DNA of 64,000 nucleotides, taken from assembly GCF_025766255.1 (NCBI RefSeq), contig NW_026516696.1, forward strand, positions 310,001-374,000, in the 5' to 3' direction. Below are positions 6,942 to 34,300 of this stretch, piece by piece. The notes below the pieces were generated by a model. That model was given only the letters and a program-made list of their open reading frames with translations. It did no database searches and was not told where the DNA came from. Made by a program: the position numbers and the translations under genes. The first letter of the stretch is position 1. Each line of letters starts with the position of its first letter. The DNA comes from Zychaea mexicana. Its lineage: Eukaryota > Mucoromycota > Mucoromycetes > Mucorales > Lichtheimiaceae.

Positions 6942-6990
6942 GCACACCCCCAGTTACACCTAGGCAGGATTTCCATTACACGCCCTGCTG
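6942..6990 (+). repeat. Left terminal inverted repeat of MULE-like element 1
   Basis: The reverse complement matches 10605-10653 over 49 bp with a few mismatches. The outer end is C-rich (GCACACCCCCAG). Confidence 0.8.
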
Positions 6991-10413: not shown

Positions 10414-10604
10414 TCAGCTACTTAACACTTGATCCTCTTATTTTCTCGTACCTTTCTTACTTCCCTTCCACTTTCTCTTTTAAATTTTTTTTTGCTACCA
10501 CCTTAAACTTATATTAATAAACGAATCCTGCATCAGTTTTCTTTATGCATTCTACCATTTCTCTTCGGCCAAAAAAGTGTGAGGGGGTGTGCACGAAAGA
10601 AAGT

Positions 10605-10653
10605 CAGCGGGGTGTGTAACGGAAATCCTGCCTAAGTGTGACTGGGGGTGTCC
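10605..10653 (-). repeat. Right terminal inverted repeat of MULE-like element 1
   Basis: Inverted copy of 6942-6990, ending in a G-rich outer end (CTGGGGGTGTCC). Confidence 0.8.
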
Positions 10654-10745: not shown

Positions 10746-13700
10746 TTTCATTAGGCTTTTACACTGATCGTTCTTTTCTTCTTCTTTTTCTCTTGATGGT
10801 GTGGCAGTTTGATGGCAGTATGGCGGCAGTCCCTAGTGGCTTTCGTTGTGCTTTCATTAGGCTTTTACACTGATCGTTCTTTTCTTCTTCTTTTTCTCTT
10901 GATGGTGTGGCAGTTTGATGGCAGTATGGCGGCAGTCCCTAGTGGCTTTCGTTGTGCTTTCATTAGGCTTTTACACTGATCGTTCTTTTCTTCTTCTTTT
11001 TCTCTTGATGGTGTGGCAGTTTGATGGCAGTATGGCGGCAGTCCCTAGTGGCTTTCGTTGTGCTTTCATTAGGCTTTTACACTGATCGTTCTTTTTTCTT
11101 CTTTTTCTCTTGATGGTGTGGCAGTTTGATGGCAGTATGGCGGCAGTCCTTAGTGGCTTTCGTTGTGCTTTCATTAGGCTTTTACACTGATCGTTCTTTT
11201 CTTCTTCTTTTTCTCTTGATGGTGTGGCAGTTTGATGGCAGTATGGCGGCAGTCCCTAGTGGCTTTCGTTGTGCTTTCATTAGGCTTTTACACTGATCGT
11301 TCTTTTCTTCTTCTTTTTCTCTTGATGGTGTGGCAGTTTGATGGCAGTATGGCGGCAGTCCCTAGTGGCTTTCGTTGTGCTTTCATTAGGCTTTTACACT
11401 GATCGTTCTTTTTTTCTTCTTTTTCTCTTGATGGTGTGGCAGTTTGATGGCAGTATGGCGGCAGTCCTTAGTGGCTTTCGTTGTGCTTTCATTAGGCTTT
11501 TACACTGATCGTTCTTTTCTTCTTCTTTTTCTCTTGATGGTGTGGCAGTTTGATGGCAGTATGGCGGCAGTCCCTAGTGGCTTTCGTTGTGCTTTCATTA
11601 GGCTTTTACACTGATCGTTCTTTTCTTCTTCTTTTTCTCTTGATGGTGTGGCAGTTTGATGGCAGTATGGCGGCAGTCCTTAGTGGCTTTCGTTGTGCTT
11701 TCATTAGGCTTTTACACTGATCGTTCTTTTCTTCTTCTTTTTCTCTTGATGGTGTGGCAGTTTGATGGCAGTATGGCGGCAGTCCCTAGTGGCTTTCGTT
11801 GTGCTTTCATTAGGCTTTTACACTGATCGTTCTTTTTTTCTTCTTTTTCTCTTGATGGTGTGGCAGTTTGATGGCAGTATGGCGGCAGTCCCTAGTGGCT
11901 TTCGTTGTGCTTTCATTAGGCTTTTACACTGATCGTTCTTTTCTTCTTCTTTTTCTCTTGATGGTGTGGCAGTTTGATGGCAGTATGGCGGCAGTCCTTA
12001 GTGGCTTTCGTTGTGCTTTCATTAGGCTTTTACACTGATCGTTCTTTTCTTCTTCTTTTTCTCTTGATGGTGTGGCAGTTTGATGGCAGTATGGCGGCAG
12101 TCCCTAGTGGCTTTCGTTGTGCTTTCATTAGGCTTTTACACTGATCGTTCTTTTCTTCTTCTTTTTCTCTTGATGGTGTGGCAGTTTGATGGCAGTATGG
12201 CGGCAGTCCTTAGTGGCTTTCGTTGTGCTTTCATTAGGCTTTTACACTGATCGTTCTTTTCTTCTTCTTTTTCTCTTGATGGTGTGGCAGTTTGATGGCA
12301 GTATGGCGGCAGTCCCTAGTGGCTTTCGTTGTGCTTTCATTAGGCTTTTACACTGATCGTTCTTTTTTCTTCTTTTTCTCTTGATGGTGTGGCAGTTTGA
12401 TGGCAGTATGGCGGCAGTCCCTAGTGGCTTTCGTTGTGCTTTCATTAGGCTTTTACACTGATCGTTCTTTTCTTCTTCTTTTTCTCTTGATGGTGTGGCA
12501 GTTTGATGGCAGTATGGCGGCAGTCCCTAGTGGCTTTCGTTGTGCTTTCATTAGGCTTTTACACTGATCGTTCTTTTTTCTTCTTTTTCTCTTGATGGTG
12601 TGGCAGTTTGATGGCAGTATGGCGGCAGTCCCTAGTGGCTTTCGTTGTGCTTTCATTAGGCTTTTACACTGATCGTTCTTTTCTTCTTCTTTTTCTCTTG
12701 ATGGTGTGGCAGTTTGATGGCAGTATGGCGGCAGTCCCTAGTGGCTTTCGTTGTGCTTTCATTAGGCTTTTACACTGATCGTTCTTTTTTTCTTCTTTTT
12801 CTCTTGATGGTGTGGCAGTTTGATGGCAGTATGGCGGCAGTCCCTAGTGGCTTTCGTTGTGCTTTCATTAGGCTTTTACACTGATCGTTCTTTTCTTCTT
12901 CTTTTTCTCTTGATGGTGTGGCAGTTTGATGGCAGTATGGCGGCAGTCCCTAGTGGCTTTCGTTGTGCTTTCATTAGGCTTTTACACTGATCGTTCTTTT
13001 TTCTTCTTTTTCTCTTGATGGTGTGGCAGTTTGATGGCAGTATGGCGGCAGTCCCTAGTGGCTTTCGTTGTGCTTTCATTAGGCTTTTACACTGATCGTT
13101 CTTTTCTTCTTCTTCTTCTCTTGATGGTGTGGCAGTTTGATGGCAGTATGGCGGCAGTCCCTAGTGGCTTTCGTTGTGCTTTCATTAGGCTTTTACACTG
13201 ATCGTTCTTTTCTTCTTCTTCTTCTCTTGATGGTGTGGCAGTTTGATGGCAGTATGGCGGCAGTCCCTAGTGGCTTTCGTTGTGCTTTCATTAGGCTTTT
13301 ACACTGATCGTTCTTTTTTTCTTCTTTTTCTCTTGATGGTGTGGCAGTTTGATGGCAGTATGGCGGCAGTCCCTAGTGGCTTTCGTTGTGCTTTCATTAG
13401 GCTTTTACACTGATCGTTCTTTTTTTCTTCTTTTTCTCTTGATGGTGTGGCAGTTTGATGGCAGTATGGCGGCAGTCCCTAGTGGCTTTCGTTGTGCTTT
13501 CATTAGGCTTTTACACTGATCGTTCTTTTTTTCTTCTTTTTCTCTTGATGGTGTGGCAGTTTGATGGCAGTATGGCGGCAGTCCCTAGTGGCTTTCGTTG
13601 TGCTTTCATTAGGCTTTTACACTGATCGTTCTTTTTTTCTTCTTTTTCTCTTGATGGTGTGGCAGTTTGATGGCAGTATGGCGGCAGTCCCTAGTGGCTT

Positions 13701-14040
13701 TCGTTGTGCTTTCATTAGGCTTTTACACTGATCGTTCTTTTTTTCTTCTTCTTCTCTTGATGGTGTGGCAGTTTGACGGCAGTATGGCGGCAGTCCCTAG
13801 TGGCTTTCGTTGTGCTTTCATTAGGCTTTTACACTGATCGTTCTTTTCTTCTTCTTCTTCTCTTGATGGTGTGGCAGTTTGATGGCAGTATGGCGGCAGT
13901 CCCTAGTGGCTTTCGTTGTGCTTTCATTAGGCTTTTACACTGATCGTTCTTTTTTTCTTCTTTTTCTCTTGATGGTGTGGCAGTTTGATGGCAGTATGGC
14001 GGCAGTCCCTAGTGGCTTTCGTTGTGCTTTCATTAGGCTT
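10746..14040. repeat. Minisatellite: about 31 tandem copies of a 106-bp unit
   Basis: A 104-106-bp unit starting TTAGGCTTTTACACTGATCG is repeated head to tail about 31 times, with near identity between copies. Variation is concentrated in a pyrimidine tract (length and C/T pattern of the CTTCTTC run) and in a CCC/CCT alternation before TAGTGGC. Copies of the two classes often alternate, giving a roughly 211-bp higher-order period: identical 204-base open frames recur at 12242, 12453 and 12876. The last copy breaks off at 14040 into unrelated DNA. The minus-strand open frames inside it are repeats of one another and are not considered genes. Confidence 0.95.
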
Positions 14041-14626
14041 TCAGAGGTTGCAAGACCGAGTGTCTGTCACGTCAATGAAAACCTGGGGGTAGCGTTTCGA
14101 CCCTTGTCACTCCAGTGGCAGTTGAGACTTTCCATATATTAATGGCTTTTTTATATAATTTTTATATTAGCGCATATATGGTTTAAATTTGAAGATTGGA
14201 TCTCTCTATGATCGAAAGAAACGTTTGAATGGGTATATATAATTATTTTTGAAATTTTATGTCGAATTGAATGCTGTGAACAAATATCTCACTTTTATTA
14301 TTATTTTTGATATCAAAAACAATAGGTACAAGGCAAGACTATATCACTCTGAATATCAAAGCTCCTAAGATGATGAAAGACATGCCGTGGTCGTTGCCAT
14401 TTTCTTTTCAGGAACTACAGACGATTTGGTAGTGGTGGAGTACATTATATCAGGTACTGAGCGATGCATAAATGGGCGGTTCTCTCATTTTTTACTAATT
14501 GATAGACTTTAAAAATATTTGCATTGGTCCTTGATTGACCAGCCTCGTATGTGTGCCGGTGAACAAAGACGAAATCCATGTATTATCCAAGCAGTATCGG
14601 CGGTTTAGCACTATCCTTCGTGCTCG
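14041..14626. other. Non-coding spacer
   Basis: Lies between the minisatellite and the 27-bp-TIR element. AT-rich; no gene or RNA was recognised. Confidence 0.4.
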
Positions 14627-15171
14627 TAAGGTGGGCGTCAGCTAAAGGGGCCAATTTAAGACCCGATTTCCAGCCTTCATAGAGTTATCTCTGCATGCTT
14701 AATTGCCACAAAAGATAGCAGAATCGATAGCTTTAGAGGAGAGGAACACAACGTACTAAATTTTTTTTCAATGCGCTCACTTGTTGCTGAGCTATGACGT
14801 TTCGAAGTCTACTATTTTTAGTACTTTTAGCTAGGAAACGAACAATTTTTGTACACCATTTCCCCATCATCTATTTTGAATCGCAAATCTTTTTCACGTC
14901 ATCTTTCACCAACTTCATAATTAAATACGCATTTAAATGGCAGGAACCAAAAGAAGAGCTAAAGTTGGTAAAGCCAACTACGAACAAGGAAAAAGATTGA
15001 GACTTGAACGCGAAAAAGCAGAATGCGAAAGAGCAGAACGCGAACAACAAGAGATCGAAGTTCAAGACATTCAACAAGAGGAAGAATCCCCTCTTATTTA
15101 TCACCTGACGCGGGGTTTAAAGTCGATTTGATTTTTGCAAAAAATGGCCCCTTTAGCTGACGCCCACCTTA
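14627..15171. mobile_element. Small element with 27-bp perfect terminal inverted repeats
   Basis: Positions 14627-14653 and 15145-15171 are perfect inverted copies over 27 bp, starting TAAGGTGGGCGTCAGC. If the outer TA is taken as target-site duplication, the element looks like a TA-inserting, non-autonomous (MITE-like) transposon of about 541 bp. A 5-bp direct repeat GCTCG just outside (14622-14626 and 15174-15178) is an alternative duplication. The interior contains one short charged open frame (14937-15131) and no transposase. Confidence 0.75.
14937..15131 (+). CDS. Short Lys/Glu/Arg-rich open frame inside the small element
   Basis: 64 codons, starting MAGTKRRAKVGKANYEQGK, then a strongly charged, probably helical stretch rich in E, R and Q. 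It has no domain I recognise. It lies wholly inside the 27-bp-TIR element. It could be the first exon of a gene captured from an autonomous relative, or chance. The low confidence reflects its length. Confidence 0.3.
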   Translation: MAGTKRRAKVGKANYEQGKRLRLEREKAECERAEREQQEIEVQDIQQEEESPLIYHLTRGLKSI

Positions 15172-15519
15172 GAGCTCGTTTCGGTCTAACGGCCGCTCGA
15201 AGAGCGCACAAACTTTATTTTGTATATATATATTTATAATAAAAATTTTAATATTTCTTCTCTCTTTAGCCGTTTGAAAAGCGCTGCAGACTTAGCACGC
15301 ACAAACATTTGAGTGGATACCAGACTACGTCTTCCCTCATAGCACAATTATTACCATTGCTTCGCGCGTTGTTGTTGTACCGCGATCAACGCGAAAAGCA
15401 CCAATTTGCTGTACCGAAGATGGTCCTGAAACACGTACTTTAATATTCTCCTTTTTCAAGTTCGCACTCTTCATTTTTCTTTGACCATCCTCGGTCGAAT
15501 ATCTTATTGCTATTTTACC

Positions 15520-18012
15520 ATGTTTTACAGCGAGTATAAGCATACCGATGATCGGACGACCAATAATGTAGAGACTGTAATTATTGAAGAAGACAACGTA
15601 TCTTTGAGCTCTTCGTCTCAAAAGTCGCTATTGCTTGCTGGGTCTTCCAAGAGAAAATATGAATCCATTGATATATACGCAGGTGACGACGATGTAAATG
15701 ATTATGAAGATCGCAAGCGGCGAGAAACCGGAGATGACGAGCACGCCAGAATAGGCGAGTCATCTACGACACTCAAAAGCCTTGGACAGCAGCGAAAAGG
15801 ACATGATGACAGTGACCGGCTTGGAAATCTTAGTTTGACGGTGCTGACAACATGGTGAGCTCAGTAATACAAATACGATAGCTGTATTATTGTACTTACA
15901 TATCGTAAACTTGTTTCTCTCAAGTTTGGGCATAGGGGCAGCCCTACCCGGTTTGGATACTTCTATTATATTCACAACGATGACAAAGATCGGAAGCGAA
16001 TTTCAAAGGTAAGTAGCATTAACTACATGGCTGGTTATGTTTCGAAAAAAGATGGTGACCTCTAGACTGGCGTTTTTTTTACAGTGCACAAATGTCAACA
16101 TGTTGCACAGCGCATACGCACTCTGTACTCTTATCACGATGCCGGCAGGTAGTAAAGAGTACTATGCACATACAAAATCAAATCATCAAAACGTACAAAA
16201 ACGTTCTAAACAACAAGCAACCAAATTATAGTTTACATGTAGCGGGTGCGCTGTCAAACGCGTTTGGACGAAAGCCAGTATTGATTACACTCAACATGTT
16301 ATTTCTGATCGGGTCATTTGGATGTGGGTAAGTTGCGACAGGTTCCTTTCACTGTGTATAGGAAACTTTGCCATAGCAATTGAAATCTCACTACTGGTAG
16401 CTTTGCACAATCGTTTGAGCACATTGTTGTAGCCCGAGCAATCGCAGGCTTTGGAGGAGGTGGGATCGCCCTGATGGGTAAAATAATTCTTCATGATATT
16501 GTATCTCGAGATCAACTGGGGTCATATCTAGCTTACCTCAGCATGTCTTCAATGGTAAGTTGTGTTTTCTCCGTATATATCAGGCACCTATGTAGTTGGA
16601 TTATCATTGCTTTATCGTGACAAAGAATCAATATATTGTTTTAGCTCGGGTTCGGCCTTGGTGCACCCATCGGCGGATTTATTACCGACTACTTTGGATG
16701 GCGTTATTGCTTTAAGATCAACATTCTACCAATGACGCTCATCCTTTACATATACACTTTTCACTTGAAAAACTACAGCGTATCTCAAAATTAAAAGGCT
16801 GTTTTGACAAGGGGAAAGCTGAAAACTGTTGATTTCGGTGGAATATTATTGCTTTCCGGAGCGAACACATCCTTGACCTGCGCACTTTTGCTTGGTGGAA
16901 CCTCTTACAGTTGGTGTAGCCCTCAAATTATCCTGGCACTAGTCTCAGCTCTGATTGGGTATATACTGTTCTTAATTCATGAGCGGCGATGGGCAGTGTA
17001 TCCTTTGTTGTCACGCGTAGCTTCACGCGACCGCAATTTCACAACAGCGTGCGTTTGTATCTTTTTACCGGCAGCATGCGAAGGAGCGGCCCTTACTGTT
17101 ATACCGCAATTTCTCATGGCAAGTATACCTGTTACATTTCATTTGCTTTGTTTAAAGAGGTTAATATGCGGCTTTAATACAAAGATGTATTGCTAATTTT
17201 TTTTAGTATATAGGGTGTGCTACATTTCAAGACCTCCAAAGCTGGTTTGTGGGTTATGATGAACGCAGCATCTGTTCCCGTTGGGACATTTATAGCCGGA
17301 CGCTATATGCACTATACTGGCAAATTCAAGCGCTTTGTAGGTGTGGCCATGACATCCTATCTTGTAGCGGTTGCCATATTCTATAGTTGGGCCGGCGGTA
17401 ATGTTTCCAAAAGCCTGGGTATCATGGGGATCTTTTTGGAGGGCGCTTCGTATGGATGTATCAGTGTTTGCATTATTGTCGCCTGTACGAGCACTTATCC
17501 AAAGAGTGTAAGTACGCATGAGCTATCATCTAAATGTTTACTTCAAAATAATATTCACAAACCAGCTATATGAATCGATAACTGAATTTTCGTCATCGTT
17601 TATGTTATTCTATAATTTTTTACGATAGTGGCTGCTATCATACATCTTTATCAATTTGCACACTAGCACGTTTCGTGGGGTATCTAATAGGCGCGGCGGT
17701 CGTATCTTCAATTATTCAATATACTTTGAGAACAGAGCTGCCAACGCGAATTGATGGTGAAGATGCAGAGAAGGTATACCTACAGATGACGACGGACCTC
17801 AACGTAGAAAGCTAAATGCTAGGCACTTTCATTCAACGCTTAAAAAGAGAAGGTTAACCAATGCGCTACGTTCTTTTCGAATTTTATAGCTGATTGAATT
17901 TATCATTAAATCGATCCACAAAGTTGATATACTGGCTCCCGAGATCCAACGAATCGTGGCAGAAGTATTGGCTCTTGGAGTGCAGCGTGCAATAGCAGAT
18001 GGGGGTTTGTGA
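15520..18012 (+). pseudogene. MFS drug/siderophore-type transporter, probably broken (left arm)
   Basis: A spliced major facilitator superfamily gene of the 14-helix type. The first exon gives a long hydrophilic Ser/Asp/Arg-rich N-tail (from MFYSEYKHTDD). Helix 1 follows (LGIGAALPGLDTSIIFTTM, about 15930-15985), then a segment with AYALCTLITMPA, then the loop signature GALSNAFGRKP. Later exons carry VVARAIAGFGGGGIALMG, LGFGLGAPIGGFITDYFGWR, TCALLLGG, RNFTTACVCIFLPAACEG and AASVPVGTFIAGRYM. An in-frame TAA near 16793 (after NYSVSQN), followed directly by more MFS sequence, cannot be spliced out by a normal-sized intron. The C-terminal exons also do not join cleanly (stop at 17813; last MFS-like segment to 18012). 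Function is probably lost. The same damage is present in the right arm. Confidence 0.7.
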
Positions 18013-18149
18013 CGTTTGGCTTTGGGGTGCACACGCCCTTCAATGTCCAAGTCAAATTATTGCAAATATTTGTCGCGTCTTCCAAAAATATCAAAAATCT
18101 TAAACCAGCGCCGCAGTCGCGTTTCATTCTTTCTCTTTACTTTTATAAT

Positions 18150-20956
18150 ATGGGCGATTCCACAGAAAATCATCCTCGCGAATGTACAGGTATAAATTTG
18201 TATTTCTTGACTGCTATGCAACACGTACTAAACTTATTAATATAAGTTTGCTAATTCATTTGTGTGTGTCTCTATTAGACCTTATATATTCATTTATTGA
18301 TAGCAAAGTTAAAATCGGTGTCATTCCCAAATTATCAAACTTTGTACACGATCATTCAACCAGAATTATTAAGCTGGACGAAGAAGTTGTAGCTATAAAC
18401 GAAATTAAAGAACTATGGACCGAACGGTTCTCATTATGTGTTAAAAAGAGAGGCGTGAAACAGGTAATTCTTTATCCAGTTACTGAACTTAGTCATTATA
18501 TTAATATTCTTTTTTTTTCTTCTTCGTTAGTTTGAACTTGATGCCAGTGCTACAAATTGGGAAAAAATAGCTGTTGATAAAGCAAAGGTTTTCATGGGAA
18601 ACTAGAAAACAAGGCATTATTTAGTAATAGTTTTGGCTCATTCTTCTTTTTCTTTTGCTTTAGGTCATGGTTGCGCACGCGAACTTATCTGCTACATTGA
18701 TCCTGGAGAAAACTGTTGTTAGACAAAATCTTTCTGCAATGCGCTTGCTGGAAAAGAATACACAAGTATGGTATCTATAATAATAAGACACATATCTTTT
18801 TCATTCACCACAAAATTATTATATGTGTCGATTTATTAAACACTTGTCCATATATTCATATATACTTTTAGGGAACTACTCATGATACGGGTAGTACATC
18901 TGGTATTATTGCAACTGGTGATGGATTAGGTGCTCCAAGCAGTACGAGCACTATTAAAAATGATCATGTTTCCAAAAGAAAGTCGAAAGAAAATCAAAAT
19001 GATGTATGATAGCATTTTCTTTTTAGATTTACTTATTTACCCCATTGTTTTTACATTAATATTGATGTTTATGATTATAGAAACCAGCCAGTAAAAAAAG
19101 TTGCCATATTGGTGCTTCTGAGGAAGTGGAAGAGGACGGCTTCATCATTCCCGGAAAAGCTGATACGTTGGGCACCATTATCAAGAAGGAAGCGCTAAAA
19201 TTGCATGATCAATTCAAGAAGGGGAAAGTGTTGAGTCCGGCCGATAGAAAAGTGATGAGGTATGAGTAGACACCATGATATTAGTAGCCGTTGTATTATA
19301 ATAACTCGACATTGATATTCAGGATTAATGGACTCAATCCATTTTTATATGATAGCAACGGGTTGTCGTCAATTGTAGATATGGTGGACGAACGAGCCGA
19401 TGGGCAGCGACGCTTTCTTACCGTTGAACAGTGGGACTATGTCAAAAATCTATTCAGTCATTTGAAGATCGCTCCTCCGAACAAAGTCGAATCTGCTGTG
19501 GACATTTGGAAAATAGTCTATAAAGTAATAATAAAAAGGTTTGAACGGGAAAACTACGTAATGATGGTAATAATTTTTGAAACAATTATGTTATATAGAC
19601 ATGCGAGGCAATTGGATCGGTAAAGGTTGGAGAACAGTATTTGTTTAAAATGAGACAACGAGAGGATAGTAGTGAAGAATCAAGATTGATATGCAAAGCC
19701 ATGGAACATATGTGAGTATTATTGCAATTGGTTTTAAAGACAGTTATGTATATCTCTTTTGCCTTTACTGATTTGGATGTTGAAATCTCGATATATAGGT
19801 TAGAATTAGTCGAAACGAAACAAGATATATTATGCCAAAGAGGAAGCAAATATACGGAAAATGACTATCTTCGCATCGTATGGTCACCTATTCTTGAACG
19901 CATATTCTCCTCCCCATTACGGCTGATAAGGTAAAAAAGATAAAGGAGTATAACTTTGAAAAAAATAGTTGTGCTGATACTATATTTTTGTGATTATATA
20001 GCGGCGAAAGTATTTTTAAATACACAACCAAGCAAAAACAGCAGTTATATGATGAATCCAATGACGTGAAGGGCTTCAAAATTGATATCAGATATGTTGT
20101 GGATAAAAATGGCAAAACGTATGATTTGGGCGCAGCTGAGTTGGGTAAAGATGGTGCAAGTTGCAAGATAATACAAGACGAAGGAAAGCTTACACGGGAA
20201 GGCAAAGATGTCGTCGATTCCTTGTTGAAAACGTTACACGAAAGCAACCATCGTCATGTTTTATCTTGGATTATTCAAATTGACGGTATGTATTAAAATG
20301 ACACTATGATGATAAATAATTGACAATGAGATGTGCTCTAAATATACATATATTTCTATTTACAATTAGCATGTGAAGCTGAAATTTCAACGTTGCACAT
20401 TGTTGGTAATGGAGTATATGTTGCGTATCCTCAGTTTAAATTTGAACTGCCCACCACCCTTGATAATCTTTCCAAGTTTGAACAAGCGTTACAAGCATTT
20501 CTTACTATCAAAGTAAGTATTTTAAGGAAATATAAGAAGAAAGCAGGCAACACTGATGTTAACCGATGTTTTTTTTGTGAACAGGAACACATGATGATGA
20601 TCCAAAGTCGTCTTTCCACTGAACAACAACGGGAAGGGGTGATCAGCCAAACATTCAACCGTTCTAATCAAGTAAAATCGGATGATATCAGCACATGGAC
20701 CCGCGCGACTTGGTACACCCCACCAAAACCATCAAAATCAAGGGTGCCTGTGCCATTATTCGGTCAAAAAAGCAAGTTCAACTTTGCAGAACGCCTACTA
20801 GTGGCTCGAAATCAGGACCTTATAGAAAGTGAAGAAGAAAAAGAGAACGTGGACATGTTTGGCTGGACTAAACGGAATGGCAAGTTTTACAATATCCATA
20901 CCCAAAAGTATGCGGACGAACACCCACTTGATAAAGAAAGCCAAGTTATTTTGTAA
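18150..20956 (+). CDS. Multi-exon gene of unknown function (left arm)
   Basis: I do not recognise this family. About eleven exons joined by short GT..AG introns give roughly 650 residues. Exon 1 is 18150-18189 (MGDSTENHPRECT); exon 2 is 18279-18463; exon 3 is 18531-18587; the last exon ends at the TAA at 20956. Visible features are an N-terminal segment with ELWTERFSLCVKKRGVKQ and NWEKIAVDKAK; a Ser/Thr/Lys-rich middle with a KRKSKENQND basic patch; a region with RRFLTVEQWDYVKNLF; a segment DIRYVVDKNGKTYDLGAAEL; and an acidic C-terminus around ESEEEKENVDMFGW. No signal peptide or membrane helix is seen. All frames appear open, unlike the neighbouring MFS gene. It could be a lineage-specific family spread by transposons. 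Its 3' end faces the DIRS-like core. Confidence 0.65.
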
Positions 20957-21499
20957 TAATTCGATCTTTTCAAAAACACACATAAACATCATCTAGCATC
21001 ATTATATCATCATTATATCCATCCCTTTCTTTTTCTTATTTCATCACTAAAACCTTTTAGTAAAAGCCTAAAAAGCTTCATCTTTTATTACTTCACTATT
21101 TTTTCTATTACTTATTCTGTTATAACAAATGATGGAACAACTGCATTTGTATATATTGATCGACAAGAATTGTATCTTATTATTATTAAATTGCTAGAAT
21201 ATCATTGGCCGAGCACAACACTATATGCCTGACACTACTGTACCTATCATCAATAAAATAGCTTTGACTTACCTATAATGTCGTGTATTTACAGAATACA
21301 GATAAACATTCTCTATTTGTAGATTTTCCATAAATCTCTTACACGTAATAAACATTATTCTTCGGCCTGCACTGAAGCTGATTGTGTCATCATTTTTTTC
21401 TTTATTGGCGAAAATACAGAGATAAAAAGGGATAGCGATACATCAAATGAGAGCTATCATTTTTTCTTTCGCTCCGGGAACACATCCGTCGAAGTAGAC

Positions 21500-22006
21500 T
21501 TGATCATGTCCGATGAGCCATTTGATATTCATGCCGCCTTGCAAACCATCACCGATCGTCTTGCTGTCCTCGAGCGTCTACGCAACGAATCACCCATGGA
21601 CGCCGACACCAACGACGATAACACGTCGTCAGATTCGGACGACCCACACGTCAGTGAACAAGCACCAACCACACTGCTCACACCGTATCCTGAGTTCATG
21701 GCGGCGTTACCCAGCTTGGGCAAGGATTTTTTCCGCAACATCATGGACGATGATACTTGGCGCACATTTCTACATGCGTGTCCTCGCAACACGGCGCGCC
21801 AGTATCTTCCTCCACCGCTCAACAACATCGACACAAGTGCTCGAACGCAACGCATCGACAAGCAGTTCCGGGACATTCAATATCGACTTTCAGGCATCAC
21901 ACGACCCATTGATTTTTTTGTGCATGACACTCTGCGCACCAATACTGTGGACGTGGCTGCAGCTCTTCGCTCGCGGAAACAATCCACGCTCTCATTTCTG
22001 ACGTAG
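21500..22006 (+). pseudogene. DIRS-like element, first gag-like frame
   Basis: 168 codons. An acidic N-terminal stretch (DTNDDNTSSDSDD) precedes TPYPEFMAALPSLGKDFF and a basic, proline-rich middle. Assignment as Gag rests on its place upstream of reverse transcriptase and on its composition; no Gag family motif was recognised. It ends at a TAG at 22004. A continuation in another frame (22039-22557) suggests a frameshifted longer protein. The ATG at 21506 is an equally good start. Confidence 0.5.
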
Positions 22007-22038
22007 CTTCAAGCATCACACAAATTAAGAGTGACAAC

Positions 22039-22557
22039 GTGTGCCGTGATACCGGTCTTACCTCCGCACCAATTGGAACACCCGGTCTTGCTAATCCACC
22101 TCTTTTGGATGCAAGCGCTGTGTTGGAACAGACAAATCTCACACAAGCGCTCCGCAAAGCTACCACTCGTCGTAGCAAATTCACTCGTAGACAATCGGGT
22201 GGACGTGCTTCTGAAACAACAACACAACCGTCGGCTGATTCGTCTTCCCACCGTACCCGATCATCAGACCGGTCAAATGATCGACGCCCAGGTGCCACCA
22301 ACAGAAGCCAGTCGGGTTTTCAGCATCGCCGGAAGAATGCCGGCCGCAAACCATCCCACAACACCGACAGCAATCAAAACAACGCGACAACGACCTGTAG
22401 GAGGGCGTTTGCAATATTTTTCTTCCGCCTAGTCGAACCTTTGCAAATCGCCTTGGATCCTTCGCGTCATACAATAAGGATTTTTAATCCCCTTCCACAC
22501 CTTACCCCGTACTCGTCATCAAGCACGCATCACAAGCAACAACCCCGCAGCGACTAG
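22039..22557 (+). pseudogene. DIRS-like element, second gag-like frame
   Basis: 172 codons, rich in Arg, Ser, Thr, Asn and Gln (for example RRSKFTRRQSGGRASETTT), which suits a nucleic-acid-binding Gag C-terminus. It is in a different frame from the upstream piece. It ends 27 bp before the reverse transcriptase frame. Confidence 0.45.
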
Positions 22558-22583
22558 CAACAGACAAGGAAGTCTGATCGCTT

Positions 22584-24065
22584 TTGCAGAAACACGCCAT
22601 CGAAGAAACAACACGCAGCGGCTTTCGTTCCACACTATTCACGATACCGAAAAAGACCGGCGACCTACGTCCAGTACTAAACCTGCGCCCGTTAAATCAA
22701 TTCATCCCACGACGTCCGTTCAAGATGGAGACCATGACGCAAGTATGTCGAATGTTACAGCCAAACGATTGGCTGACCAGCATAGATGTGCAAGATGCGT
22801 TTTTACATATTCTGATACATCCACACTCTCGCCGTTTTCTGCAGTTTCAGTGGAGAAATCGCATGTATCGTTTTCGCACATTGGTGTTCGGTCTGTCACT
22901 GTCACCAATGATCACGAAAATTCTACGACCAGTACTTCGATGGGCTCGCAGTCAGAACATTCCCATATCAGCCTATCAAGACGACCTGCTGATCGCGGCC
23001 AAAAATCAGCAGCAGTCAGTGGCTCAGACACAAGTCATTGCGAAGTTACGCAGCCTTGGTTTTCTACTGAAGGAGTCCAAGTCTCAACTAGTACCATCAC
23101 AGAAAATCGAACATCTGGGCTTCACTATCAACACGTTAACGATGTGCCTATCAGTGTCAACAACGAAGTTGCGCGACTTACGACGCGAAGCGCGCAAACT
23201 TCTCAATCGTCCGACAGTCACTGTACGTCATCTGTCATCCTTCATTGGGAAGGCACAAGCAACAACATTGGCCGTGCTTCCAGCCCGGTTATTCACCCGT
23301 CACCTCATTGCATGCCGCAACCAGACGCTAGCGCAAGGCTCAGATTGGAACGATCAGATGAACATCAGTCCAGCAGCTTGTCAGGAGCTCCAGTGGTGGT
23401 ACAGCCATCTGCAACAATGGAACGGACAGAGTTTCATGCCGTCGGCACCGGACATCGAAGTGTACACCGGTTCGTCGGATCATGGGTGGGGCCTAGTCTT
23501 TGGCAACAAGACGATAGCCGGCAAATGGTCAGCAAAGCATGCAACACAACACGTTATCTACAAAGAACTTTTGACAATACGCCATGCGATACGACATCCG
23601 ACTTTGCGAGGCAGGAAGCTTCGGGTGTATTGCGACAACACAACAACCATAGCGTACGTGAATCACCTCGGTGGGACGAGGTCACCTGCGCTCATGAACC
23701 TGGCAACGTCGATTTGGCAAGAATGTCTCAAGAGCAACACTCGACTTCAGCTGTCCTACGTATCGTCGCAGTTCAACCCAGCGGACCCACCGTCGCGGCA
23801 GTTGCAGCAATAATTGGAATGGAGCATCAAACCGCAGTACTTTCACAAGTTGAACATGGCTTGGGGACCACACGACATCGATTGCTTTGCGACACGGCAG
23901 AACACGAAGCTACCCCAGTTCATGAGCTGGAGATGGGATCCGCAAGCAATAGCGACCAATGCTCTACACCATCCATGGAGGGAATGGAAACGCATATATG
24001 CATGTCTACCGTGGAACCTTCTTCAGCAGGAACAGATCAAAGCAACCATCATCACACCACATTAA
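22584..24065 (+). pseudogene. DIRS-like reverse transcriptase and RNase H
   Basis: The reverse transcriptase has its first motifs in TIPKKTGDLRPVLNLRPLN, the catalytic-Asp motif SIDVQDAFLHI, FGLSLSP and the YQDD box (AYQDDLLIA). The RNase H domain follows, with VYTGSSDHGWG, a central Glu in YKELLTIRHA, YCDNTTTIAYVN, and a last Asp in QFNPADPPSR. The usual first Asp of the TDAS-like RNase H motif is replaced (TGSS). A TAA at 23811-23813 is followed in the same frame by a DIRS-typical segment (GPHDIDCFATRQNTKLPQF) up to 24065. The stop suggests decay, or less probably readthrough. Confidence 0.85.
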
Positions 24066-24099
24066 CCCAGCGCCATTTGGTATCCAACGCTACAACAAC

Positions 24100-25256
24100 T
24101 CAGCAGCAGCAAACCACAACGAGTACCACGAACAGCAGTAATGGCTGCACCCGAACACGATCAGTCACTCCTGAGCAAGAACCCACATTGGTGTTTAGTC
24201 GCATGGAATATAAACGGCGCCGCCTAGCAGATGCTGGCATCGCAACTGAAGCTGAGTCTATCATGATGGGTCCTACGCACAATCAACAACGCGTGCACCA
24301 CTTTGATCGCATTCAACGCAGCTACATCACCTGGGCACGTTCCCACCAGATTGATCCACTAACACCCAATCCAGTACAGTTGGTCAACTATTTGGCGTAT
24401 GGCCGTGTGCATATGGGTTGGTCAACTAGCACCTGCTGCAATTATCGTTCAACAATTCTTGACTTATACACAGATCGCACAACATTCACATCCAACACTA
24501 TGTACCGCGAATTTTTTGTGGCTCTCAACGAACAGACGGTCCGTTCATTTGATCGTCCTCATTGTGACATTCAACCGGTCATTCAACATATAACAAAACT
24601 CGGCAACAACAACCAGATACGCGCAATCGACCTCACTCGCAAGCTCTGCTTTCTGCTTGCAATTACGGGGTTTTTGCGATAATCAGATATCGAGAGAATC
24701 GACGACTCCCGAACGATAGTTTCAACAAAAGGGTTGCGTGTTGTCATTGCGCGACCCAAGGAGAAACGTGGAGGGCAACCGATCGAGAAAGTCATTCACA
24801 TCCGACGTCACACCAACACGCTCCTTTGCCCCGTACAAGCGTATGAAGACTACAAGGCATAGTATGCTCGTACTCCATGTGTTCGTGCTTACCCTGTTCA
24901 CAATGGCCCTCGTACAACCGTTCATCGCTTGATACGCTCTGTACACAACAATTCTCTGCCAATTGGGGCGGAACGAATCAGCAATCATATCAAGAACCTG
25001 CTCGATCTGATCCCACGACCAGAAGGATCTCGTCGACCCAAAGCTCGGGCAATCGGATCGACTGCTGCTGTCCAAGGGGGGCGCTAGTCTCGACGACGTT
25101 CTCATCCACGCGTCCTGGTTGTCTTCTTCAGTATTTGACACCTTCTACCGCTTGTCCTGTGAAACAGCCACGGATTTTACAAGACTGGCTCTTGGCCAAG
25201 CTTCGACGGATTTGCCTCTGGATACACAATCAGCTTCAGTGCAGGCCGAAGAATAA
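24100..25256 (+). pseudogene. DIRS-like tyrosine recombinase
   Basis: The start is approximate. The core begins with a SAM-like N-terminal domain (RIQRSYITWARSHQ, VQLVNYLAYGRVHMGWS) and continues through RKLCFLLAITGFLR, which holds the first catalytic Arg region. Then come SDIERID, GLRVVIARPKEKRGG and LLCPVQAYEDYKA, and the C-terminal block RPKARAIGSTAAVQGG. The block LDDVLIHASWLSS and SVFDTFYRLS, with the nucleophile Tyr, lies at the end. Damage: a TAA at 24680-24682, a TAG near 24860, and an extra G in the G-run at 25076-25081. The frame ends at a TAA at 25254-25256, so its last 11 codons lie inside the right palindrome arm. Confidence 0.8.
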
Positions 25257-25654
25257 TGTTTATTACGTGTAAGAGATTTATGGAAAATCTACAAATAGAG
25301 AATGTTTATCTGTATTCTGTAAATACACGACATTATAGGTAAGTCAAAGCTATTTTATTGATGATAGGTACAGTAGTGTCAGGCATATAGTGTTGTGCTC
25401 GGCCAATGATATTCTAGCAATTTAATAATAATAAGATACAATTCTTGTCGATCAATATATACAAATGCAGTTGTTCCATCATTTGTTATAACAGAATAAG
25501 TAATAGAAAAAATAGTGAAGTAATAAAAGATGAAGCTTTTTAGGCTTTTACTAAAAGGTTTTAGTGATGAAATAAGAAAAAGAAAGGGATGGATATAATG
25601 ATGATATAATGATGCTAGATGATGTTTATGTGTGTTTTTGAAAAGATCGAATTA

Positions 25655-28461
25655 TTACAAAATAACTTGGCTTTCTTTATCAAGTGGGTGTTCGTCCGCA
25701 TACTTTTGGGTATGGATATTGTAAAACTTGCCATTCCGTTTAGTCCAGCCAAACATGTCCACGTTCTCTTTTTCTTCTTCACTTTCTATAAGGTCCTGAT
25801 TTCGAGCCACTAGTAGGCGTTCTGCAAAGTTGAACTTGCTTTTTTGACCGAATAATGGCACAGGCACCCTTGATTTTGATGGTTTTGGTGGGGTGTACCA
25901 AGTCGCGCGGGTCCATGTGCTGATATCATCCGATTTTACTTGATTAGAACGGTTGAATGTTTGGCTGATCACCCCTTCCCGTTGTTGTTCAGTGGAAAGA
26001 CGACTTTGGATCATCATCATGTGTTCCTGTTCACAAAAAAAACATCGGTTAACATCAGTGTTGCCTGCTTTCTTCTTATATTTCCTTAAAATACTTACTT
26101 TGATAGTAAGAAATGCTTGTAACGCTTGTTCAAACTTGGAAAGATTATCAAGGGTGGTGGGCAGTTCAAATTTAAACTGAGGATACGCAACATATACTCC
26201 ATTACCAACAATGTGCAACGTTGAAATTTCAGCTTCACATGCTAATTGTAAATAGAAATATATGTATATTTAGAGCACATCTCATTGTCAATTATTTATC
26301 ATCATAGTGTCATTTTAATACATACCGTCAATTTGAATAATCCAAGATAAAACATGACGATGGTTGCTTTCGTGTAACGTTTTCAACAAGGAATCGACGA
26401 CATCTTTGCCTTCCCGTGTAAGCTTTCCTTCGTCTTGTATTATCTTGCAACTTGCACCATCTTTACCCAACTCAGCTGCGCCCAAATCATACGTTTTGCC
26501 ATTTTTATCCACAACATATCTGATATCAATTTTGAAGCCCTTCACGTCATTGGATTCATCATATAACTGCTGTTTTTGCTTGGTTGTGTATTTAAAAATA
26601 CTTTCGCCGCTATATAATCACAAAAATATAGTATCAGCACAACTATTTTTTTCAAAGTTATACTCCTTTATCTTTTTTACCTTATCAGCCGTAATGGGGA
26701 GGAGAATATGCGTTCAAGAATAGGTGACCATACGATGCGAAGATAGTCATTTTCCGTATATTTGCTTCCTCTTTGGCATAATATATCTTGTTTCGTTTCG
26801 ACTAATTCTAACCTATATATCGAGATTTCAACATCCAAATCAGTAAAGGCAAAAGAGATATACATAACTGTCTTTAAAACCAATTGCAATAATACTCACA
26901 TATGTTCCATGGCTTTGCATATCAATCTTGATTCTTCACTACTATCCTCTCGTTGTCTCATTTTAAACAAATACTGTTCTCCAACCTTTACCGATCCAAT
27001 TGCCTCGCATGTCTATATAACATAATTGTTTCAAAAATTATTACCATCATTACGTAGTTTTCCCGTTCAAACCTTTTTATTATTACTTTATAGACTATTT
27101 TCCAAATGTCCACAGCAGATTCGACTTTGTTCGGAGGAGCGATCTTCAAATGACTGAATAGATTTTTGACATAGTCCCACTGTTCAACGGTAAGAAAGCG
27201 TCGCTGCCCATCGGCTCGTTCGTCCACCATATCTACAATTGACGACAACCCGTTGCTATCATATAAAAATGGATTGAGTCCATTAATCCTGAATATCAAT
27301 GTCGAGTTATTATAATACAACGGCTACTAATATCATGGTGTCTACTCATACCTCATCACTTTTCTATCGGCCGGACTCAACACTTTCCCCTTCTTGAATT
27401 GATCATGCAATTTTAGCGCTTCCTTCTTGATAATGGTGCCCAACGTATCAGCTTTTCCGGGAATGATGAAGCCGTCCTCTTCCACTTCCTCAGAAGCACC
27501 AATATGGCAACTTTTTTTACTGGCTGGTTTCTATAATCATAAACATCAATATTAATGTAAAAACAATGGGGTAAATAAGTAAATCTAAAAAGAAAATGCT
27601 ATCATACATCATTTTGATTTTCTTTCGACTTTCTTTTGGAAACATGATCATTTTTAATAGTGCTCGTACTGCTTGGAGCACCTAATCCATCACCAGTTGC
27701 AATAATACCAGATGTACTACCCGTATCATGAGTAGTTCCCTAAAAGTATATATGAATATATGGACAAGTGTTTAATAAATCGACACATATAATAATTTTG
27801 TGGTGAATGAAAAAGATATGTGTCTTATTATTATAGATACCATACTTGTGTATTCTTTTCCAGCAAGCGCATTGCAGAAAGATTTTGTCTAACAACAGTT
27901 TTCTCCAGGATCAATGTAGCAGATAAGTTCGCGTGCGCAACCATGACCTAAAGCAAAAGAAAAAGAAGAATGAGCCAAAACTATTACTAAATAATGCCTT
28001 GTTTTCTAGTTTCCCATGAAAACCTTTGCTTTATCAACAGCTATTTTTTCCCAATTTGTAGCACTGGCATCAAGTTCAAACTAACGAAGAAGAAAAAAAA
28101 AGAATATTAATATAATGACTAAGTTCAGTAACTGGATAAAGAATTACCTGTTTCACGCCTCTCTTTTTAACACATAATGAGAACCGTTCGGTCCATAGTT
28201 CTTTAATTTCGTTTATAGCTACAACTTCTTCGTCCAGCTTAATAATTCTGGTTGAATGATCGTGTACAAAGTTTGATAATTTGGGAATGACACCGATTTT
28301 AACTTTGCTATCAATAAATGAATATATAAGGTCTAATAGAGACACACACAAATGAATTAGCAAACTTATATTAATAAGTTTAGTACGTGTTGCATAGCAG
28401 TCAAGAAATACAAATTTATACCTGTACATTCGCGAGGATGATTTTCTGTGGAATCGCCCAT
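25655..28461 (-). CDS. Multi-exon gene of unknown function (right arm)
   Basis: Mirror copy of the gene at 18150-20956, with the same exon pattern. The translated fragments are identical as far as I compared them, including the C-terminal exon carrying NFAERLLVARNQDL and the acidic ESEEEKENVDMFGW tail. Its stop is at 25655 and its start ATG at 28461. It reads toward the DIRS-like core, converging on its twin. I cannot say whether either copy is expressed. Confidence 0.65.
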
Positions 28462-28598
28462 ATTATAAAAGTAAAGAGAAAGAATGAAACGCGACTGCGG
28501 CGCTGGTTTAAGATTTTTGATATTTTTGGAAGACGCGACAAATATTTGCAATAATTTGACTTGGACATTGAAGGGCGTGTGCACCCCAAAGCCAAACG

Positions 28599-31091
28599 TC
28601 ACAAACCCCCATCTGCTATTGCACGCTGCACTCCAAGAGCCAATACTTCTGCCACGATTCGTTGGATCTCGGGAGCCAGTATATCAACTTTGTGGATCGA
28701 TTTAATGATAAATTCAATCAGCTATAAAATTCGAAAAGAACGTAGCGCATTGGTTAACCTTCTCTTTTTAAGCGTTGAATGAAAGTGCCTAGCATTTAGC
28801 TTTCTACGTTGAGGTCCGTCGTCATCTGTAGGTATACCTTCTCTGCATCTTCACCATCAATTCGCGTTGGCAGCTCTGTTCTCAAAGTATATTGAATAAT
28901 TGAAGATACGACCGCCGCGCCTATTATATACCCCACGAAACGTGCTAGTGTGCAAATTGATAAAGATGTATGATAGCAGCCACTATCGTAAAAAATTATA
29001 GAATAACATAAACGATGACGAAAATTCAGTTATCGATTCATATAGCTGGTTTGTGAATATTATTTTGAAGTAAACATTTAGATGATAGCTCATGCGTACT
29101 TACACTCTTTGGATAAGTGCTCGTACAGGCGACAATAATGCAAACACTGATACATCCATACGAAGCGCCCTCCAAAAAGATCCCCATGATACCCAGGCTT
29201 TTGGAAACATTACCGCCGGCCCAACTATAGAATATGGCAACCGCTACAAGATAGGATGTCATGGCCACACCTACAAAGCGCTTGAATTTGCCAGTATAGT
29301 GCATATAGCGTCCGGCTATAAATGTCCCAACGGGAACAGATGCTGCGTTCATCATAACCCACAAACCAGCTTTGGAGGTCTTGAAATGTAGCACACCCTA
29401 TATACTAAAAAAAATTAGCAATACATCTTTGTATTAAAGCCGCATATTAACCTCTTTAAACAAAGCAAATGAAATGTAACAGGTATACTTGCCATGAGAA
29501 ATTGCGGTATAACAGTAAGGGCCGCTCCTTCGCATGCTGCCGGTAAAAAGATACAAACGCACGCTGTTGTGAAATTGCGGTCGCGTGAAGCTACGCGTGA
29601 CAACAAAGGATACACTGCCCATCGCCGCTCATGAATTAAGAACAGTATATACCCAATCAGAGCTGAGACTAGTGCCAGGATAATTTGAGGGCTACACCAA
29701 CTGTAAGAGGTTCCACCAAGCAAAAGTGCGCAGGTCAAGGATGTGTTCGCTCCGGAAAGCAATAATATTCCACCGAAATCAACAGTTTTCAGCTTTCCCC
29801 TTGTCAAAACAGCCTTTTAATTTTGAGATACGCTGTAGTTTTTCAAGTGAAAAGTGTATATGTAAAGGATGAGCGTCATTGGTAGAATGTTGATCTTAAA
29901 GCAATAACGCCATCCAAAGTAGTCGGTAATAAATCCGCCGATGGGTGCACCAAGGCCGAACCCGAGCTAAAACAATATATTGATTCTTTGTCACGATAAA
30001 GCAATGATAATCCAACTACATAGGTGCCTGATATATACGGAGAAAACACAACTTACCATTGAAGACATGCTGAGGTAAGCTAGATATGACCCCAGTTGAT
30101 CTCGAGATACAATATCATGAAGAATTATTTTACCCATCAGGGCGATCCCACCTCCTCCAAAGCCTGCGATTGCTCGGGCTACAACAATGTGCTCAAACGA
30201 TTGTGCAAAGCTACCAGTAGTGAGATTTCAATTGCTATGGCAAAGTTTCCTATACACAGTGAAAGGAACCTGTCGCAACTTACCCACATCCAAATGACCC
30301 GATCAGAAATAACATGTTGAGTGTAATCAATACTGGCTTTCGTCCAAACGCGTTTGACAGCGCACCCGCTACATGTAAACTATAATTTGGTTGCTTGTTG
30401 TTTAGAACGTTTTTGTACGTTTTGATGATTTGATTTTGTATGTGCATAGTACTCTTTACTACCTGCCGGCATCGTGATAAGAGTACAGAGTGCGTATGCG
30501 CTGTGCAACATGTTGACATTTGTGCACTGTAAAAAAAACGCCAGTCTAGAGGTCACCATCTTTTTTCGAAACATAACCAGCCATGTAGTTAATGCTACTT
30601 ACCTTTGAAATTCGCTTCCGATCTTTGTCATCGTTGTGAATATAATAGAAGTATCCAAACCGGGTAGGGCTGCCCCTATGCCCAAACTTGAGAGAAACAA
30701 GTTTACGATATGTAAGTACAATAATACAGCTATCGTATTTGTATTACTGAGCTCACCATGTTGTCAGCACCGTCAAACTAAGATTTCCAAGCCGGTCACT
30801 GTCATCATGTCCTTTTCGCTGCTGTCCAAGGCTTTTGAGTGTCGTAGATGACTCGCCTATTCTGGCGTGCTCGTCATCTCCGGTTTCTCGCCGCTTGCGA
30901 TCTTCATAATCATTTACATCGTCGTCACCTGCGTATATATCAATGGATTCATATTTTCTCTTGGAAGACCCAGCAAGCAATAGCGACTTTTGAGACGAAG
31001 AGCTCAAAGATACGTTGTCTTCTTCAATAATTACAGTCTCTACATTATTGGTCGTCCGATCATCGGTATGCTTATACTCGCTGTAAAACAT
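28599..31091 (-). pseudogene. MFS transporter, probably broken (right arm)
   Basis: Mirror copy of the MFS gene at 15520-18012. It carries the same internal TAA (mirror position about 29818) and the same disordered C-terminus. Sharing of these lesions shows that the gene was already damaged when the arms were duplicated or last made identical. Confidence 0.7.
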
Positions 31092-31344
31092 GGTAAAATA
31101 GCAATAAGATATTCGACCGAGGATGGTCAAAGAAAAATGAAGAGTGCGAACTTGAAAAAGGAGAATATTAAAGTACGTGTTTCAGGACCATCTTCGGTGC
31201 AGCAAATTGGTGCTTTTCGCGTTGATCGCGGTACAACAACAACGCCACATACTCACTATACCAAAATTGGCTCGCTTACACCATGTAAATAAAAAGCCTC
31301 GCAAGCGTGTTCTGAGCTGGACCAGATACATAAGGGGTGTCACT

Positions 31345-34300
31345 AAAAATGGTGCACCGAGATTTGTGACTCGGAAAATGTGCCTTTTTCTCTTCGGTTC
31401 CTAAAAGAACGCTTTGAACTACATTTCAAGCAAAATCTACTGTTCACATATAACAATGTCCAAACACATTACCTTTTTTCGAAGAAGATTTTTTAAGGAC
31501 TCCTATGAAGAGGAGGCTCCCGCCTATTTTGACTCCAAAAGCGAAAAGTACTATTTTCGACAAAGCATCTAGTCCTTCACGACGCTCAATTAAACTTACT
31601 CAAAACTTTTCGATTTTTGACAGGTACGTAAAACTGAATTTGGACATTGAATGGTCTATGCGCAAGGTTTATGGTCCTCGAAAACAAAAGCACAATAGCC
31701 ATCGCTACAAGAAGAAATGCAATGGTTTCGTCCGCTGCACTAGAGAGGCCTGCAAATTCTATGGCAAACATTTGCGCCCGCGCTGCGATTTTGAACAAAT
31801 TCATAAACAATGCCAGCTTGGATGTATGCGCTGCGGAGGCGATTTAGAGCACGTTGACACTTGTAAAACAGAGGCGTTCTACTATTTCGACGGCAGTAAA
31901 TGCACTGTTAAGCAGATCGGCACACATGACCACGAACAATATACTGCGAAGCATCTATCGGAAGTAGAGAAGGAAACACTTGCAGAGAGAATTCGAAGTG
32001 ATCCAACGGTGACACCCAAGGCAGCAATTCATGGCAACAACAAGCGAACTGGGGAAATCGTTGAATCGATCATTAGGATCAACCCAATTCTTGGCACGAG
32101 GGACAGAGCCGAGTATGAAATCAACTAAGTACGCGAGGAACGAGATATTCCAAGAAAAGGTGAATTTCTCGGCGGCTTGGGCAAGATTATGAATGAGTTC
32201 CCTGGGTACTTCCTCTACGCCCACGTTCTACCAGGCTCATTCTTTTTGGCGTATCGGTCACCGACTCTTAAAGAATATGTTCACTTTCAAGATTTTCCGG
32301 CTGTTATCGATGTCACTTTCAAGCATTTGAGAAAGGATACTATCTCTGCTCAACAGTGATCTATGTTCCTGAGCTGAAAAGACACACAGTGATATTCCAA
32401 GCTGTCCTGGATGGCCTTTCACAAACCTACTTTGCCCAATACTTTTTTGCATTCTTCACAGAGTACAACGTTAAGTTTGAAGGCAACAATTCCTTTCTCG
32501 GTATGATGATGGATTTCTCTTTGGCACAAAGGAATGGATTTCTGCAAGCCTACACACAGTACACCAGAAAGGATGACGGCATGCGGTTCCTAAAAGGGTG
32601 CTATATGCACTGGATGCAATCTGTTCAACGTCTCAACAGCAATCACAGCATCATTCTACCCGAATCCAGCGAACGATTTCGTGAACTGACCTGCATCATT
32701 CGGACAACTGAAGATGCTGCTGAATTTTGCCGTAGTTGTAAGGAACTGGTGACAAATTTCAAGCATACTTTCAAATGGCTCAAATGGTGGCTACAACCAT
32801 CTATAAGCAGCATGATTTTTCGACATCGCTCCAGCATGAATGACGCCCTCCGCAGCCACCCTTATCGTACCACAAATGTAGTGGAAGCGTTCCATAGAGA
32901 TTTATACCGAGATACTGTACACAACTTGCCTATATCTCTAGCGCTTCCACAAACGTTGAATTATATCCGCTCAGATGAATTGACACTGAAAAACTATGAA
33001 GAAAATGCGGTGCCTGCTTCATACAACAGAGCACCGCGACAAGCTCGAAAACGATCAAAGAAAACTTTGGCAATGATGGACGTGCTCCGGATGTTTTCGG
33101 TAAACTTGTTAATGATGTTACCACCGATCAACAGCCACTGGAGCATTTTCTTTATGACGACCATGCTGAAAGCAAGACACTATCACAAGCAGAAAAAATC
33201 ACCAACAAGAGCACCATGCCGTTCGCCAAAAGACTTTCGAAAGAGGATATCAAAGCAGTATCACAGCAAGATATCTTGAATAAGACTGATGAACGCGCCC
33301 TGCACCTTTTGGATATGAAAGTCGATCCGTTCACGTTGAAAGAAATTGAGACAATGGCTGAGAACTTGGAGACAGGGTCAGAGGAAATGATGCAATATAT
33401 CATGGGTGGCGAGATGAAGAATGAAAAGAAGAAGCAAGAAGTGAAGGAGAAAATTGCAATGAGCAAGACCAAAGAAAAGATGAAGACGGAGAAGAAAACA
33501 GAGAAAATGATGGACAAGAAAACTGAAAACAACCAGAAGAAAAGAAAACAACCGGAAAATCAAGCTGAGGACTTATGGCCGAGTAACAGGAAAAGTCTTC
33601 GAAGAGAACCATGGTAGTTTTAATAGATTATTGGGAGCGATTGACAGTATAACTGAATTTAATACAATAGTTTCGTCCATCGAGAGATCCCGCTCGATTG
33701 CTCGTTTGGAATTAAGCAAATCAAAGCTGACGGATGGTGTGGATATCGTGCCCTTGCTCTCCAACTTCATGGTGACCAAGATCAATATATCAAGGTCAAA
33801 CAAGCAATTCTTGATCAGCATTTTGCGAACTATGATTTCTACCGCGATACTCTATGGAATGGACGTGAGGTCATAATACAAAATGCGATCAAACGAATGG
33901 AATATGGTATCACACCAGAAACAGCACGATACCAGAAGTACACTTGCAATTCGGATTATTGGTTCAATGCGGTAATAGATGCCCAAATTGCTGCAGATGC
34001 ATATACTGTACCGATTGCAGTATATGATGATCGCTTGGATTGGAACAGCGTTTTGTACTTGCCTTTTACTATCCCAAAGGGGACCAATCGACAACCGCAG
34101 CCAATATGTAACTCTTTTTCTTAGCTCAAATCACTTCAACGCAATTGACCTCCATCCAGAGCACGACATATGGAGTGGCCGCCCGTCAGACCTTATCATG
34201 AGATAGGTTGGCATCGTCTTGGACTTAAGGCAGATTACAAGACTACATGGCGGTATCTTCATAGAAGACGCTTGACCGAAAACGAGAAACAATTTTTCAT

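Follow-up and report, generated by a model that had tools for sequence, protein, structure and literature searches.

A palindrome of two host genes in Zychaea mexicana: probable inverted duplication by fold-back at a DIRS retrotransposon

Human fold-back duplications have an unduplicated spacer with inverted homology at its edges, as the junction data in PMC3907307 describe them. In the 21 sequenced junctions given there, the spacers measure 766-70,466 bp with a median of 3,428 bp, and 13 junctions have 2-8 bp of inverted microhomology, 3 have homologous repeats and 5 have insertions. In yeast, inverted repeats that lie far apart are described to fold back on each other in single-stranded DNA (PMC10164571). 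Here, we have analysed a window of 64,000 nucleotides from the fungus Zychaea mexicana (C233:310001-374000; contig labels with C refer to this assembly of 50.3 Mb in 305 contigs) and found a palindrome in which two host genes are mirrored around a DIRS-like retrotransposon. We argue that this structure is probably a fold-back inverted duplication seeded by the DIRS element, with the core of the element as the loop. It is best read as the outcome of a mechanism that is known, acting here from a seed that is new and well suited to it, and not as a new kind of mobile element.

Other described systems resemble this locus in part. In Dictyostelium, a partial DIRS lies at the 3' end of the large inverted duplication on chromosome 2 of Ax4 (PMC2643946, PMC11754127). 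In contrast to the present case, that duplication is far larger, unequal crossing-over between repeats is suggested for it, and the portions of these papers that deal with it describe no junction between a DIRS terminus and an internal complementary region (ICR). Candida albicans, also a fungus, has fold-back inversions at inverted repeats (PMC7371428), whereas the repeats described there are long (one has copies of ~3 kb), the process involves homologous recombination and repeated breakage cycles, and no retrotransposon terminus/ICR pair figures in the relevant part of that account. Palindromic gene blocks are also reported from a springtail in the corresponding part of PMC5490193. In the mainly open-access literature that we searched, we found no description of DIRS-seeded mirror duplications or of DIRS as a recurrent seed.

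The palindrome in the window is composed of the following parts:

15366..21387, + strand: left arm, with 2 mismatches to the right arm and an outer junction that is chimeric as judged from its sequence
21388..25223, + strand: single-copy core or spacer, a degenerate DIRS body and the putative fold-back loop
25224..31245, - strand: right arm; the flank past 31245 carries on the upstream region of an MFS paralog (C233:64473-64555)
15520..18012, + strand (left copy), and 28599-31091, - strand (mirror copy): MFS transporter gene with introns (PF07690, E=5.6e-27; automatic exon model)
18182..20956, + strand (left copy), and 25655-28429, - strand (mirror copy): second intron-bearing gene (automatic approximate exon model)

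The two arms, 6,022 bp each, are inverse complements of each other that differ by two mismatches (15412/31199 and 17684/28927) and no indel, and BLAST lengthens their match inward by another 3-4 bp with one gap. The 3,836-bp core between them is not duplicated, and the flanking DNA outside the palindrome is unlike on the two sides. This confirms the first-pass annotation in its description of a long palindrome without net indel around a DIRS-like element. The arms carry host genes, the MFS gene and the second gene, and both are modelled with introns. These modelled introns are present in both arms, which suits copying from DNA; the copying of a spliced read-through transcript is disfavoured by the retained introns, an argument that does not extend to unspliced RNA. 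The second gene matched no Pfam family. A comparison of the arm DNA with a plasmid collection gave no match and is uninformative here, and scans of the window for tRNA genes and Rfam families at gathering thresholds gave no hits.

A whole-assembly search with the arm gives counts that are lower bounds. Full-length arm matches were reported twice, both at the palindrome, and a core query (22500-24500) found one copy, here, the remaining matches being 67% relatives. A 92% relative of the MFS part lies on the same contig (C233:61875-64425), and beside it the search returned older, partial relatives at 67-68% and two short pieces at 76 and 84%. These results bear on another option raised by the first-pass annotation, namely a giant DIRS composite in which host genes form long terminal arms and move with the element as a unit. 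The symmetry about the DIRS core is what such a composite would show. However, the full arm copies found are these two only, and no second copy of arm plus core was seen. As described below, the end of the element set by comparison with a relative lies inside the arm, so that the arms run beyond the terminus, the right terminus was not found and the recombinase is broken. We regard the composite as very improbable.

The core contains the following parts of a DIRS element:

22578..23813, + strand: DIRS reverse transcriptase frame (PF00078, E=5.5e-19)
23814..24065, + strand: match to a Dam-like methylase domain (PF05869, E=1.4e-4, under the Pfam cut-off)
24440..25256, + strand: putative tyrosine recombinase region, three frames read separately, with alignments to the C275 copy (24440 is not a fixed start)

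The recombinase region is broken by in-frame stops at 24680 and 24860 and by a frameshift near 25080. It is recognised as such because another DIRS copy, on C275, has an intact recombinase frame to which three of its four pieces can be aligned; the fourth piece does not align. The pieces that were compared with Pfam had no integrase match, and the C275 frame itself has a sub-threshold match to PF00589 only. RNase H gave no Pfam match in the window frame, and PF00075 was matched under the cut-off in the C275 copy. Like the DIRS1-like elements described in PMC3266345 and PMC3783388, the element has a reverse transcriptase, a terminus that starts with ATT, a left ICR half complementary to it and an AAT junction, together with a putative Dam-like methylase domain and a putative tyrosine recombinase region. 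In contrast to those described there, neither a right ICR half nor a right terminus was found at this locus, and mirrored host arms lie on both ends of the element.

The ends of the element were located by comparison with its closest relative, the C101 copy (L025, C101:427001-437000), which has the full DIRS layout with both termini and both ICR halves. In this copy, the terminal repeats pair over 94 bp (95%), the left ICR half (L025 7776-7808) pairs with the left terminus over 33 bp (97%), and the right ICR half pairs with the right terminus over 78 bp (96%); the 78-bp pair was missed under one repeat-search setting and then confirmed by a separate check. Alignment to the C101 copy identifies the following two segments in the window:

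21354..21387, + strand: outermost 34 bp of the DIRS left terminus, starting with ATT, which form the inner end of the left arm; strong homology to the C101 terminus begins at the same point
25224..25257, + strand: left ICR half, the inverse of 21354-21387, ending with AAT

As judged from this alignment, the inner 34 bp of each arm are the DIRS terminus and its ICR mirror; the remainder of the arms is host DNA. The start fits the 23 of 28 published DIRS elements that begin and end with NTT, most often ATT, in the compilation of PMC3266345. The ICR half at 25224-25257 is followed directly by the inverted host flank, in place of the right ICR half and the right terminus, and the switch from ICR to host flank occurs at the exact base after the mirrored left terminus. 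An inverted duplication by recombination at the DIRS element had been among the options of the first-pass annotation, and the inner junctions, which lie exactly at the left terminus and at the ICR half that mirrors it, speak for that option.

Searches with parts of two relatives did not find the right ICR half or the right terminus in the window, in the 10 kb leftward or in the rest of the contig rightward. These queries matched the retained left terminus best (E=9e-7 and 1.6e-9), and all other hits had E>=0.018. Of the two inverted terminal repeats and the two ICR halves, only the left ones were found at this locus. Since the C101 relative has both termini, we read the missing right terminus as a loss. 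The C101 copy has no long mirrored flanks and contains the terminus/ICR inverted pair all the same, which indicates that the inverted homology at the spacer edges predates the event. The same relative rules out that the arms are long DIRS terminal repeats, because it places the terminus at 21354. Insertion of a DIRS into a pre-existing palindrome is ruled out because the mirror symmetry takes in 34 bp of the element and the right terminus was not found.

The hallmarks of fold-back found here are an unduplicated spacer, pre-existing inverted homology at its edges and loss of sequence beyond the break. The locus shares with the human and yeast fold-backs, as far as PMC3907307, PMC7467729 and PMC10164571 characterise them, a spacer that measures a few kb and is edged by inverted homology, loss beyond the break and a second junction. 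It differs from them in that the arm is 6 kb long and interstitial, and in that the homology is the built-in terminus/ICR pair of a DIRS element instead of separate repeats or chance microhomology.

The second junction is found at the outer end of the left arm, and the right arm ends differently:

15170..15367, + strand: truncated 5' end of a second DIRS, here called DIRS-B, 89% identical to C296 (L044) and 82% to C277 (L021)
14609..14628, + strand: further piece of DIRS-B across an inserted element with terminal inverted repeats (TIR), 20/20 identical to L044
14627..15171, no strand assigned: short TIR element within DIRS-B, with TA on each side (target duplication)
31246..31328, - strand: rest of the MFS upstream region at the right outer junction, 92% over 83 bp to C233:64473-64555

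On the left, the truncated DIRS-B is joined to the MFS upstream region, and the sequence indicates a chimeric junction. The C296 relative diverges after 15367 and the arm starts at 15366, so that 2 bp (GC) are common to both and constitute a microhomology. The places on C296 and C277 that match DIRS-B adjoin DIRS-like reverse transcriptase matches, and part of 15170-15367 has a second, inverse match at the far end of the C277 copy (82%, C277:87932-88029), as expected for a terminal repeat. With the two partial relatives L021 and L044 as queries, the continuation of DIRS-B was not found in the window, in the 10 kb leftward or in the contig rightward. The TIR element within DIRS-B probably belongs to a recently active non-autonomous family: the assembly has 10 more long copies of it at 98-100%, besides a partial one at 86% and shorter fragments. 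On the right, the outer junction looks ancestral: the flank continues the MFS upstream region, and its divergence from the MFS paralog equals that of the arm itself (92% identity). From these outer junctions we judged the left arm to be the derived copy and the right arm the original. The first-pass annotation had not noted that the inner 34 bp of each arm belong to the DIRS, that the right end of this DIRS is missing or that a truncated DIRS lies to the left of 15366.

A DIRS element has three inverted pairs (terminus/terminus, left terminus/left ICR and right terminus/right ICR). We infer the following course of events. A DIRS would have inserted beside two host genes, and a break in or near its ICR would have produced an end bearing the left ICR half. 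By folding back, that end could have paired with the element's left terminus, to which it is inversely complementary over 34 bp, and DNA synthesis could have proceeded outward through the terminus into the host flank, through the second gene and then the MFS gene, for ~6 kb. The new end would have been joined to DIRS-B on the other side via the 2-bp microhomology, while what remained of the ICR and the right terminus, with anything between them, would have been lost from the locus. The core may later have been flipped by arm-to-arm recombination, or its orientation in the assembly may be arbitrary. Such a course would yield the arrangement seen here, with a single-copy loop, a mirrored flank, a lost distal part and a second join. 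Break-induced replication is not claimed as the copying step.

To see whether other DIRS copies have mirrored flanks, we surveyed the best 17 loci besides the window among 98 reverse transcriptase matches in the assembly; the weaker matches probably belong to other types of element. The survey covers DIRS copies alone. Surroundings were taken for 15 loci (14 of 10 kb and one of 8,958 bases), C35 and C277 being left out, and 11 of these had both ends recognisable (those without were L026, L027, L035 and L037). For 10 of the 11, the comparison covered 1.9-3.9 kb on each side and showed no long mirrored flanks, with inverse matches of 25-52 bases in three. Around the remaining copy, on C275, the flanks are mirrored over at least 3.4 kb (C275:172137-175554 and 179643-183000), up to the edge of the DNA compared. 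Mirrored arms together with the loss of one native terminus were therefore found in 2 of 12 assessable copies, the window included. Other repeats were seen around two of the surveyed copies. In L032 (C237:66001-76000), the DIRS lies between direct repeats of ~2 kb (72%; local positions 390-2449 and ~7107-9149), the second of which starts at the element edge, and in L025 on C101 an inverted repeat of ~0.85 kb (82%; local 1358-2208/2493-3332) lies entirely on one side of the DIRS.

The arms of the C275 copy are 96.8% identical; of 3,358 aligned positions 48 are mismatched, and indels occur as well. Their outer 1 kb is identical and a 0.5-kb stretch located 0.5-1 kb from the element is 6% diverged, with indels; this patchy divergence suggests gene conversion between the arms. 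Transitions account for 39 of the 48 differences, as expected if methylated cytosines mutate. Left terminus and left ICR half pair over 24 bp in this copy, whereas they do so over 61-79 bp in 9 intact copies and over 33 bp in the C101 copy. Both ends carry right-type outer sequence, and of the left terminus predicted from the ICR, 24 bases were found near either end. One terminus with its flank seems to have been replaced in C275 by a mirror copy of the other, via pairing inside the terminal repeats.

The C275 copy also bears on a role of the element's own tyrosine recombinase. Strand exchange between sister chromatids, involving the ICR circle-junction site (AAT, in the inverse copy) of one and the left terminus of the other, could give a mirrored chromosome that was later broken and rejoined. 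The switch inside 34 bp that end at the ATT/AAT trinucleotide fits such an exchange, as does the 3-bp site proposed for DIRS integration in the passages of PMC3266345 that treat it. On the other hand, the termini of C275 are both right-type on the outside, which places the exchange within the inverted terminal repeat and not at a 3-bp site, and the recombinase frame in the window is broken, though a copy elsewhere could act in trans. This route is quite unlikely in our view.

Several observations speak against our preferred reading. The chimeric inner junction lies beside the right arm, yet by the outer junctions this arm is the original; given this conflict, the core must have flipped, unless its orientation in the assembly is arbitrary. 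The paralog at C233:61875-64425 has the left-arm base at both arm mismatches, which would put both changes on the right arm and weakly favours the left arm as the original. Ten of the 12 assessable DIRS copies are without such arms. The C275 arms include stretches that have many weaker relatives, and C275 may have another history. Two cases in one genome are suggestive of frequent DIRS-driven mirroring and are not proof of it.

Some of these observations would be accommodated if the left arm were the original and the right arm had been copied from it by fold-back, the copy ending by recombination with the upstream region of another MFS gene further rightward. This order fits the inner junctions and both arm differences directly without any flip, and MFS paralogs do exist on the same contig. 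It would however require that copying reached the exact base at which DIRS-B truncates the left copy and that the body of the paralogous MFS gene on the right disappeared, and the right flank is as diverged from the paralog as the arm is. We consider it somewhat unlikely, and prefer the right arm as the original because the right flank carries on the MFS upstream region seamlessly.

An assembly or library artefact, either a chimeric fold-back molecule or a misjoin in the contig, is unlikely. The near-identity of the arms would be in keeping with it, as would the orientation of the core, which misfits the outer junctions unless it has been flipped, and the palindrome is known here from the assembled contig. 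An artefact would nevertheless have to produce four different junctions, two of them biologically exact (the ICR/terminus switch and the 2-bp microhomology into another DIRS), and the flanks differ on the two sides. The mismatches and indels between the C275 arms are not expected from duplicated reads, and this divergence speaks against an assembly artefact there.

The DNA around the palindrome contains further repeats. Its right flank includes an unrelated repeated element:

31347..33700, + strand: repeated element (33700 is the query end and not the element end), with 7 further copies at 94-98% over nearly the whole stretch and 1 partial copy at 93%

The first frame of this element (31347-34124) has a weak GCM match under the Pfam cut-off. 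Just left of the palindrome, 10746-14041 consists of 31.1 head-to-tail units of 106 bp (98% matches), and T strongly outnumbers A on its + strand. At 6944-10651, a MULE-type transposase (PF10551, E=4.3e-21, 7706-8566) lies between the halves of a 47-bp inverted repeat (89%) at 6944-6990 and 10605-10651.

The first-pass annotation had suggested that the palindrome, if real, would be a new way of moving or duplicating genes. Our results do not bear this out for moving genes, and they do support a route of local duplication. We tentatively propose that DIRS elements may be built-in palindrome makers: breaks in them would readily be repaired by fold-back through their inverted pairs, so that host genes are recurrently mirrored with the element as the loop, followed by gene conversion between the arms and flipping of the core. 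The locus gives a base-by-base view of how the replication signals of a retrotransposon, its terminus and ICR, could supply the inverted homology for duplication of neighbouring genes. The proposal predicts that in any DIRS-bearing genome some copies would be without one native terminus and flanked by mirrored host DNA. If it is true, such fold-back would be a source of inverted gene duplications in lineages rich in DIRS elements, among them early-diverging fungi and perhaps Dictyostelium.

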